Origin: a virus
Virus record (IMG/VR): IMGVR_UViG_3300009100_000034
Coordinates: 1 to 30,982 of that record
Strand: one strand, 5' to 3'
Length of the DNA: 30,982 nucleotides
Every line of letters begins with the position of its first letter. Position 1 is the first letter of the stretch. This document shows, piece by piece, positions 11,381 to 21,552 of this stretch. Position numbers and translations under genes: made by a program. The notes under the pieces are model-generated. The model did no database searches and was not told the origin of the DNA. It worked only from the letters and a program-made list of their open reading frames with translations.

Positions 11381-12949
11381 ATGGCATCACGACATGATCT
11401 TGTCCCCGTACCAGGCTTTCATATCAACGAGGATGAGATAATCGCAAGCCTCATGGACTCGGTCCAAGAGGCCAAGCGCCGGGCAAGTGAGCCGAGTCAG
11501 GAGCAGCGCCTGCGCGACACCGTCAGCGCACTCCTGAACCAGCTCGGGAAGCTCAGCGTTCAGGAAGACGCCCTCATCTTCGAGGGTGAGAAGTTCATCC
11601 TGCCGGCGCAATATAGCGGCAAGGTCGAACAGGCCATTGACTTCTTGCGGAACCACATCAAGCAAGAGTCGATGATGTTCAACTTCAGCAAGACCATGCC
11701 CTACCGGCCGTATGACGGTGCACATGCCTTCATGAACGTGATGCGCAACCTGACCGGCACGACCGGCTTCGGCGTCAACCGGATGACCTTCTTCGGCCCT
11801 GAGCCGCCAGAGTTCGTCTCCATCAAAACGAGCCTGAACACAAGTACCCAAGTTCCCTGGGGCCTGGTGCAGTTCCCGGCCTACAGCGCCACCTTCGATG
11901 TCGGCGTCACGTCGACTGAGCACGGCTACGTCTTCCACCTGACCGTCGAAGCACCCAGGAAGTTCCGCAAGGAGATCGAGGCCATCTTCGGGCTGATCGA
12001 GGACTACCTGAAGACGGACTCCATCTACAAGGGTCAGGCCATCAACGGCGAGGGCCTGCAGCCCGAGTTCATGGACCTCACTGGCGTAGACCCCGACAAG
12101 GTCGTCTACAGCCAGGACGTGATGGACGACCTCCTGGCACACGTCTGGGCACCCATCCGGTACGCAGAGCAGATGCGTCGGCAGGGACTGCCCCTCAAGC
12201 GGGCAGTGCTGTTCGCCGGCCCGTTCGGCACCGGCAAGACCCTCGGCGCCATGCTGACGGCCAAGGAGGCGGTTGAGCACGGCTGGACCTTCATCATGTG
12301 CCGTACCGGCAAGGATGACCCGGCCGTGGTCATGAAGACGGCTGAGCTGTACGCGCCGGCCGTGGTCGTGATCGAGGACCTGGACGTGCACGCCGGTACC
12401 TCTACCAAGGTGGAAATCTCCAGGCTCCTGGAGATGCTCGATGGCGCGGTGACCAAGGGCAAGGAGATCATCGGCCTGTTCACCACCAACCACATCGAGG
12501 ACATCCAGAAGGGCGCCCTGCGTCCTGGCCGCATCGACGCGGTCATCGAGATCACCAAGCTCGATGAGCCAGCATTCCGTCGCCTGATCAGCAACACGCT
12601 GGGCGTGGACTTCCTCGCCAAGGACATCGACTGGACCCGCGTGGCCATGGCGTACGAGGGCTTCCTGCCCGCGTTCGTGGTGGAGGCCGCGCGCCGGTCT
12701 CAGCGCTACATCATGGCGCACAACGGTGGCATCCCCAGCATCGTGAACACCGAGGGCCTGGAGGGTGCTGCACGTACCCTGCGGCCACAGCTGGACCGGA
12801 TGGAGGGTGCCAAGGAGGGCGTACGCGAGCACCAGCTCGAAGACGGACTCCGGGAGATCATGGAAGGCGTCAACAAGCGCACCTACATCCCCAACCACCC
12901 GAAGTTCCAGGTCGAAGAGGCCACCGTCCTCAACGGCGGCAAGCACTAA
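11381..12949 (+). CDS. AAA+ ATPase, 522 aa
   Basis: ATG 11381 follows CTGGAGAGAGTAA. The AAA module occupies about residues 235-430: Walker A GPFGTGKT (280-287), Walker B VVVIEDLD (E332-D333), a sensor-1 region IIGLFTTNH, and LRPGRID, the usual arginine-finger and PGR region of FtsH/Cdc48-type ATPases. The N-terminal 230 residues are specific to the family and probably recognise the substrate. No protease domain follows, so it is likely a remodelling ATPase acting on protein. Codon use is very regular and GC-rich. It ends in a strong terminator. Confidence 0.9.
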   Translation: MASRHDLVPVPGFHINEDEIIASLMDSVQEAKRRASEPSQEQRLRDTVSALLNQLGKLSVQEDALIFEGEKFILPAQYSGKVEQAIDFLRNHIKQESMMFNFSKTMPYRPYDGAHAFMNVMRNLTGTTGFGVNRMTFFGPEPPEFVSIKTSLNTSTQVPWGLVQFPAYSATFDVGVTSTEHGYVFHLTVEAPRKFRKEIEAIFGLIEDYLKTDSIYKGQAINGEGLQPEFMDLTGVDPDKVVYSQDVMDDLLAHVWAPIRYAEQMRRQGLPLKRAVLFAGPFGTGKTLGAMLTAKEAVEHGWTFIMCRTGKDDPAVVMKTAELYAPAVVVIEDLDVHAGTSTKVEISRLLEMLDGAVTKGKEIIGLFTTNHIEDIQKGALRPGRIDAVIEITKLDEPAFRRLISNTLGVDFLAKDIDWTRVAMAYEGFLPAFVVEAARRSQRYIMAHNGGIPSIVNTEGLEGAARTLRPQLDRMEGAKEGVREHQLEDGLREIMEGVNKRTYIPNHPKFQVEEATVLNGGKH

Positions 12950-12969
12950 ATAGCTTTGCTCTCTCCACC

Positions 12970-13025
12970 TGCCCCCAGATCCAGGGTTCCTCAGCCCCCC
13001 TGGATCTGGGGGCACCCTGATTTTC
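12970..13025 (+). terminator. strong intrinsic terminator after the AAA+ gene
   Basis: TGCCCCCAGATCCAGGG (12970-12986) pairs without mismatch with the strand 12998-13014 (17 bp) around TTCCTCAGCCC, followed by CCCTGATTTTCTT. Confidence 0.9.
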
Positions 13026-13053
13026 TTGGTCGGGAGGTTCTTCAGCCGTACCC

Positions 13054-13082
13054 TTGACACGGGGGACATCCCCCTGTAGTGT
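13054..13082 (+). promoter_or_regulatory. promoter with palindromic spacer
   Basis: TTGACA (13054-13059), exactly 17 bp, then TAGTGT (13077-13082). The spacer contains GGGGGACATCCCCC (13061-13074), an operator-like palindrome. GTCACGGGTGAC just downstream (13081-13092) is another inverted repeat. It drives the ParB-like gene pair. Confidence 0.75.
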
Positions 13083-20523: not shown

Positions 20524-20676
20524 ATGGAAATACTGATCCTGTTACTGCTCATTGCTGCCGCCATATGCTTTGGGCTTGCTGTTGTTAGCTTCACGGCCCG
20601 TGTCAATCTCATTGCCTTGGGCCTGCTCTTTTGGGTTGCGACAGCCGTACTTCGTGCCTTTGAGACGGTCAGTTAG
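20524..20676 (+). CDS. small membrane protein, 50 aa
   Basis: ATG 20524 opens a frame of 50 residues with two hydrophobic segments (MEILILLLLIAAAICFGLAV and LIALGLLFWVATAVL) separated by a short polar turn with Arg. Its TAG (20674-20676) overlaps the TAA of the converging release-factor gene. The ribosome binding site is weak. A small two-span protein such as this could be holin-like, but nothing in the sequence proves it. Confidence 0.5.
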   Translation: MEILILLLLIAAAICFGLAVVSFTARVNLIALGLLFWVATAVLRAFETVS

Positions 20677-21023
20677 GAGCTGAGGTCGGCCTCATCGACC
20701 CGCACCCAGTGGTCATTGCGCTTGACCTCTATCTTGATCTCGTGCCTCGGGACCTCGAACTCAGACTCACGAACCAGCTCTTGCCCCAACGTCCGGCGCA
20801 GTCATAGCTGGAACTGAGGACTTGTGGCCATTCGCTTCCAGGCCAGCCTCTTATTCTGCAACTGGCTACGTTCATCACGAGCCTCGCCACGGGCACCAGA
20901 GGCCCGATGAATGATCCGTACTCCGGTGTCACGCTTATTAACGTTTTGACCGCCCTTGCCACCGCAGCGAAACGTCTGGACATCGCAGTCAGCGATGGTC
21001 ACTGACAATATTCTCGTGCGCAT
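20673..21023 (-). CDS. RF-1/ArfB-like GGQ peptidyl-tRNA hydrolase with an in-frame UGA
   Basis: ATG 21023 follows GAGGAGGTGGCAA. FRCGGKGGQNVNK carries the GGQ motif (residues 24-26) that hydrolyses peptidyl-tRNA, followed by the usual GVRIIH...SGARGEARDERSQLQNK and AWKRM. The frame meets TGA at codon 74 (20802-20804), then continues in the same frame for 42 codons (LRRTLGQELV...EIKIEVKR) to TAA at 20673. RF-domain proteins usually have Trp at about the UGA position (FQxWLRR). With read-through the protein is 116 residues, the size of ArfB-like proteins. Alternatives are a point mutation or sequencing error. Confidence 0.8.
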
Positions 21024-21246
21024 TTGCCACCTCCTCACGCAAACTATCTAGCAGCTTCCTTACAAGTTCTGGATCACTGGGCTTGATACTTTTCCACGTC
21101 TTACGTAGCACAATGTCTCGGATCGTTTCTCGGGACCGGCCCACGCGACGTCCGATTTCTGCATTGCTCAGTCCATCCACTGAGCTAAGAGACCGGATAA
21201 CAGCAACTTGTTCTATGGCCAGTGGTTCGTGTCTTTCAATTGTCAC
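20989..21246 (-). CDS. helix-turn-helix protein, 85 aa
   Basis: A short protein whose middle, LSNAEIGRRVGRSRETIRDI, is a sigma/resolvase-type helix-turn-helix followed by VLRKTWKSI, a pattern frequent in actinophage proteins. It overlaps the GGQ gene by 35 bp, so the latter's ribosome binding site lies inside this gene. Likely a small regulator. Confidence 0.7.
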   Translation of the reverse strand: MTIERHEPLAIEQVAVIRSLSSVDGLSNAEIGRRVGRSRETIRDIVLRKTWKSIKPSDPELVRKLLDSLREEVANAHENIVSDHR

Positions 21247-21258
21247 TAGTCTATTTTC

Positions 21259-21552
21259 TCACGAAGGGATGCCCTTTTCGGCTGGCCACTCACCTGTAGC
21301 TGCCTTATGGAGGTTGGCGCACAGACCCTTGGGATTCTGTGGGAAATACTTGCGAAGCAGCCGTACGCAACGACGGAAGGAGCCGTCAGTCCCCCAGCGG
21401 ATCTTCAGGGCACCCTTGCCTCGGGTCCAGTACCTCTTGAGGTCCCGATCCATGACGCCGGGGATGCCGGTGGCGAACTCTTCATCACAGTCAACGCAGT
21501 CCCTAGCGGCACCTTGATGCCTGGCTAAGTTGATGGAGATCTTTCCGGCCAC
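21259..21552 (-). CDS. conserved actinophage protein, 97 aa
   Basis: GTG 21552 starts a frame with WTRGKGALKIRWGTDGSFRR and LRKYFPQNPKGLCANLHKAA, a strongly conserved motif of a small family I know from many actinobacteriophages, function unknown. DCVDCDEEF near the N-terminus may bind metal. No clear ribosome binding site. The 63 bp upstream (21553-21615) hold nothing I can identify. Confidence 0.65.
   Translation of the reverse strand: MAGKISINLARHQGAARDCVDCDEEFATGIPGVMDRDLKRYWTRGKGALKIRWGTDGSFRRCVRLLRKYFPQNPKGLCANLHKAATGEWPAEKGIPS

Follow-up and report, generated by a model that had tools for sequence, protein, structure and literature searches.

An RF-1 domain gene interrupted by an in-frame TGA

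The window analyzed here is the whole 30,982 nt stretch of viral DNA in IMG/VR record IMGVR_UViG_3300009100_000034 (positions 1 to 30,982), and the element under study is an RF-1 domain (GGQ) gene, related to peptide-release factor genes, at 20673-21023. The original prediction, made from the letters of the window, held that this gene is interrupted by an in-frame TGA at 20802-20804. This was confirmed, and the gene was placed on the minus strand, which the prediction had left unstated. Reading starts at an ATG (21023-21021, minus strand), ahead of which sequence inspection revealed a strong Shine-Dalgarno-like GAGGAGGTGG (21027-21036, minus strand), and continues past the TGA of codon 74 (20804-20802) to a TAA (20675-20673). 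The predicted products are a protein of 73 amino acids (aa) if translation stops at the TGA (codons 1-73, the GGQ core, 20805-21023) and one of 116 aa if the TGA is read through, which includes a C-terminal extension of 42 aa (20676-20801). Each contig with an interrupted gene carried one copy of it, and rescue by an intact paralogue was therefore rejected.

The window protein consists of one domain, with the GGQ motif at residues 24-26, and matched the Pfam RF-1 family with an E-value of 3.2e-16. The match to phrog_3122 (PHROGs database) had an E-value of 1.9e-38 for the read-through form, covering positions 21-135 of the 136 in the profile, and of 3.1e-31 for the short part. The AlphaFold model of the 116-aa form (predicted local distance difference test score, pLDDT, 90.8) showed the GGQ core of release factor domain 3, a helix at residues 69-86 and a beta hairpin at residues 98-109, so that the TGA interrupts the last helix within its first turns, where the core gives way to the extension, and the rest of that helix and the hairpin belong to the extension. 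The 73-aa part was predicted to fold alone (pLDDT 89.6).

The protein had been described as ArfB-like. It does have a GGQ domain without a stop-codon-recognition domain, as do ArfB, ICT1 and mtRF-R, and its fold is similar to theirs (Z 6.7 for ArfB and 7.5 for mtRF-R). However, profile comparison with solved structures placed its sequence nearest to RF1, RF2, mitochondrial RF1 and PrfH, with ArfB and ICT1 more distant, and the extension is not basic, as residues 75-116 contain 8 Arg/Lys and 10 Asp/Glu.

Codon 74 among relatives

Relatives were gathered from four IMG/VR scans, the window and four phage records, and reduced to 138 distinct family members. Codon 74 was TGG in 131 of these, TAC in three and TGA in four, which bears out the expectation of a Trp at the interrupted position. 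The proposed comparison of homologues for TGG or TGA had a mixed outcome: most have TGG, yet three loci other than the window have TGA, namely L053 (IMGVR 3300038406_000058), L073 (3300044706_000074) and L118 (also recovered as L015; 3300048574_000038). The contigs with TGA at codon 74 come from different samples, which makes a sequencing or assembly error at this codon the least credible of the explanations considered.

The four TGA loci are spread over separate branches of the family tree, where their distribution requires 4 changes, with supported branches forcing at least 3. A pattern built on invariant residues, with the bases around codon 74 left free, recovered only the three known loci besides the window from the whole collection and no TAA at codon 74; a second pattern scan found the same TGA loci. 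The window itself is apparently masked from such scans. A single further in-frame stop was present in the family, a TGA at Trp 62 in L010/L079 (L010:5181-5183; GCT TGA AGG), and the part downstream of it was conserved. Trp codons of the family genes other than codon 74 were TGG in 175 cases and TGA in 1. A search of genome contigs returned cellular release factor genes and no member of the phage family, and a plasmid search for the release-factor gene gave no match.

Nonsense mutation and chance

The main rival explanation is that the stops are recent nonsense mutations: the gene would be dispensable, the TGG-to-TGA change would kill the full-length protein, and the tail would be intact for lack of time. 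That TGG becomes TGA by a single transition, and that the relatives are mostly TGG, speak for this explanation. It fits less well with the kind of stop found, since 5/5 in-frame stops in the family were Trp-to-TGA changes and none was TAG, TAA or situated at a Gln or Arg codon. In a one-step nonsense model applied to the 131 TGG genes, TGG-to-TGA at codon 74 made up 2 to 6% of the targets. Under this model, the probability that at least 4 of 5 stops lie at codon 74 as TGA was 1e-6 to 8e-5, and the probability that 5/5 stops are Trp-to-TGA was 4e-7 to 5e-5. Trp-to-TGA is the sole nonsense change that is repaired exactly by near-cognate tRNA-Trp. The interruption goes beyond what chance would give, in view of the homology of the downstream part to that of the relatives and of the three other phages with TGA at this codon.

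Bases around the stop

The candidate leaky-stop context of the window is CTA TGA CTG (20799-20807, minus strand), and the corresponding bases are CTT TGA CTG in L053, GTT TGA CTG in L073 and GTA TGA CTG in L118. The motif NTW TGA CTG (W, A or T) was thus present at 4/4 TGA loci, while NTW TGG CTG was found in 1/131 TGG relatives and in 1/37 of those with the same flanking residue types. Among TGG relatives above 55% guanine-cytosine content, A or T stood just before codon 74 in 1/22, and CTG followed codon 74 in 16/131 TGG relatives (Fisher 4e-4). TGA CTG occurred at 0/98 long TGA-ended open reading frames (ORFs) in five phage contigs. Common synonymous bases on the flanks would not be expected from random hits, which argues against recent nonsense mutation. 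When a C follows UGA, termination efficiency is altered and recoding at prfB is favored (PMC13245932), and UGA-C is a known weak-stop feature (PMC13245932; PMC3521657).

Constraint on the downstream tail

Coding constraint past the TGA, which had been named as a point to check, was present in the window, L053 and L073 and absent from L118. In the former three of the four TGA loci the tail of 42-53 aa is still homologous and about as constrained as that of the sense relatives, and it ends in a hairpin motif that is also found in TGG relatives. Non-synonymous divergence (dN) of the tail was 0.31 for L073-L083 and 0.41 for the sense sister pair L076-L083; it was 0.43 for window-L042 and 0.38 for window-L002, against 0.41 for the sense pair L042-L002. 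For the window and L073, the pairs of TGA and sense members spanned 0.26-0.43, and for L053 the values against relatives ranged from 0.31 to 0.63, with 0.57 for the sense pair L050-L045. As the dN of TGA-sense pairs is similar to that of sense-sense pairs, there is no relaxation in the TGA lineages, L118 excepted. Unraised tail divergence and the strong Shine-Dalgarno that the window keeps both disagree with a decaying gene, whereas the tail already gone in L118 agrees with one; on balance we regard recent nonsense mutation as an unlikely, though serious, explanation.

In L118 the frame runs on for only ten codons past the TGA before it meets a stop and a hairpin that resembles a terminator, so that the TGA there may simply end the protein. 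This would fit a second explanation, in which the TGA phages are meant to produce the 73-aa GGQ core and the stop trims an extension that is becoming unnecessary. The predicted independent folding of the core and the existence of phrog_20323, a 73-position RF-1 family in phages, point the same way. The conserved tails of the window, L053 and L073, with the hairpin motif of the TGG relatives, are hard to reconcile with it, and we consider it improbable.

Genetic code, tRNAs and RNA structure

TGA was an ordinary terminator of long ORFs in all five contigs; the code is therefore standard and not reassigned, and genome-wide reading of TGA as Trp was rejected. An efficient reading of UGA as Trp, through a suppressor tRNA of the phage or host or through an altered host code, would have some footing in the large tRNA sets of related phages. 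tRNAs were located by a scan with RF00005: the L073 phage has 38, among them a tRNA-Trp(CCA), and the sibling phages L042 and L002 gave 35 and 47 tRNA matches. However, no tRNA with a UCA anticodon was detected in the contigs, which are incomplete, and the L073 tRNA-Trp is ordinary in its D-arm, without the Hirsh-type G24A, and in its paired 27-43 positions. No suppressor tRNA-Trp was thus seen, and this explanation appears very improbable.

Other routes to the tail were also rejected. Selenocysteine insertion would call for a selenocysteine insertion sequence (SECIS) hairpin, and no significant fold was found in the 60-90 nt downstream of the stop in the window, L053 and L073. A +1 frameshift as in prfB does not apply, as the tail is in frame 0. 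Stop-start coupling through an [AT]TGA overlap was dismissed by inspection, since in the window the ATG that overlaps the stop leads into a frame of just 12 codons.

A putative leaky UGA in a release factor-like gene

A stop that recurs at one codon and between the same neighboring bases suggests a deliberate leakiness that limits the amount of full-length factor. We therefore somewhat favor, from comparison of sequences, a leaky UGA-C that would be decoded by tRNA-Trp and would yield the 73-aa GGQ core together with a minor 116-aa form. Most ribosomes would stop at UGA 74 and release the core, while in a minority the weak (A/U)UGA-CUG would be decoded by near-cognate tRNA-Trp and synthesis would run on to the 116-aa protein, whose residue 74 would presumably be Trp, like that of the TGG relatives. 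Since almost all relatives conserve the extension, the functional form is probably the long one, on which the stop would act as a brake. A single transition would switch this brake on or off, so that a scattered distribution is to be expected. The read-through to 73-aa and 116-aa forms proposed originally accordingly remains the best reading of the recurrence, the UGA-C context, the constraint and the standard code, with both proteins being predicted products.

RF2 and tRNA-Trp may compete at the UGA-C, and a shortage of RF2 or of termination capacity would be expected to raise the yield of full-length protein, because UGA is the codon of RF2. This regulation is the least certain step, and a plain low-dose device would be equally compatible with the data. 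The broader proposal, that tailed phages have repeatedly evolved a same-frame UGA-C switch in a release factor-like gene and make the full-length protein in proportion to failing RF2 termination, is offered tentatively and is rather doubtful.

Several observations count against a leaky stop, in addition to the lost tail of L118. The TGA loci number only four and all are metagenomic contigs; 50,697 records yielded no isolate phage with this TGA, most matches not having been inspected codon by codon. A single clade for the four TGA rows was not rejected in the approximately unbiased (AU) test (p 0.27), which makes an independent origin of the loci likely and not certain. The difference between codon 74 (TGA in 4/135) and the other Trp codons (1/176) could arise from small numbers. 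The full CTG context was recognized only in retrospect, so that the P values of the exact motif are optimistic. The exonuclease control gene, meant to show as a baseline how often stops interrupt other phage genes, had one relative only. Finally, no significant stimulatory RNA fold was found near the stop in the window, L053 and L073, the fold in L118 being the terminator-like hairpin only.

Comparison with known systems

The closest parallel in bacteria is the +1 frameshift of prfB (RF2) at CUU UGA C, which likewise places an in-frame UGA followed by C inside a peptide-release gene; L053 also reads CUU UGA C. The two cases differ in that the tail of prfB is in the +1 frame and that of the phage gene in the same frame, in that prfB has a shifty CUU and a Shine-Dalgarno-like stimulator whereas the window has CUA and no such element upstream of the stop, and in that the stop lies at about codon 26 of prfB and after the catalytic core in the phage gene. 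Before RF2 genes were sequenced, readthrough of an in-frame UGA had been contemplated for them, but no bacterial RF2 gene was known in which the frame stays the same past the UGA (Atkins et al., 2016; PMC5009743). If the phage reading is true, phages use the simple readthrough autoregulation that had at one time been envisaged for RF2 and that bacterial RF2 genes were not found to have, and a same-frame UGA gained several times at one codon of a phage release factor would allow a short reporter to test that old idea. Such a gene would also provide a natural, compact leaky-UGA context and a warning that automatic annotation truncates such genes.

The class-I release factor of Mimivirus (R726) and Megavirus (mg280) is likewise virus-encoded and contains a stop in UGA-C context that is read through, probably by insertion of Trp (PMC3521657). 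That factor is of the eukaryote/archaea type, belongs to amoeba viruses, has an added frameshift and has its stops in the 5' region, whereas the phage gene has a bacterial RF-1 domain, occurs in tailed phages and has a single stop after the core. In bacteria, in-frame stops have been described in genes that are still under purifying selection and were suggested to lower expression (Belinky et al., 2021; PMC7918605); that work was a genome-wide survey, while the phage case concerns one family, one codon and one context. The phrog_3122 RF-1 factors of mycobacteriophages (Bixzunavirus, Wildcatvirus, Mclasvirinae and Omegavirus) are of the same family as the window gene, with similar length and tail, but the four isolate mycobacteriophage relatives inspected at codon 74 have TGG and an uninterrupted gene. 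No report of an in-frame stop in phage RF-1 genes was found in the literature, where coverage of subscription journals was thin.

Neighboring genes and other features of the window

Downstream, the TAA of the release-factor gene shares bases with the stop of a convergent gene for a 50-aa membrane peptide (20524-20676, plus strand), in agreement with the prediction that the final stop meets a converging gene. Phage L051 has a homologous ORF beside its own release-factor gene. In Mycobacterium phage prophi86-1 (L039:2995-5913), the RF-1 gene lies amid tRNA genes near an RtcB-like RNA ligase and a peptidyl-tRNA hydrolase, a neighborhood reminiscent of the PrfH-RtcB repair of damaged ribosomes. 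No RtcB partner gene was found in 8 contigs, most of them fragments, and one isolate relative has RtcB close by.

Elsewhere in the window, a cluster of six tRNAs occupies its start (92-808), and two antisense ORFs of 560 aa (minus strand) and 522 aa (plus strand) overlap almost fully at 11381-13069, the 560-aa ORF having no match in Pfam or PHROGs. Upstream of the release-factor gene, a helix-turn-helix (HTH)-like gene (20989-21246, minus strand; weak HTH matches below the Pfam cut-off) overlaps its start by 35 nt. A 97-aa ORF (21259-21552, minus strand) ends in TGA, and the same frame continues free of stops into the HTH-like gene. This junction (20989-21552) ranks second among the in-frame TGA candidates of the window, and the two ORFs are probably two adjacent genes.
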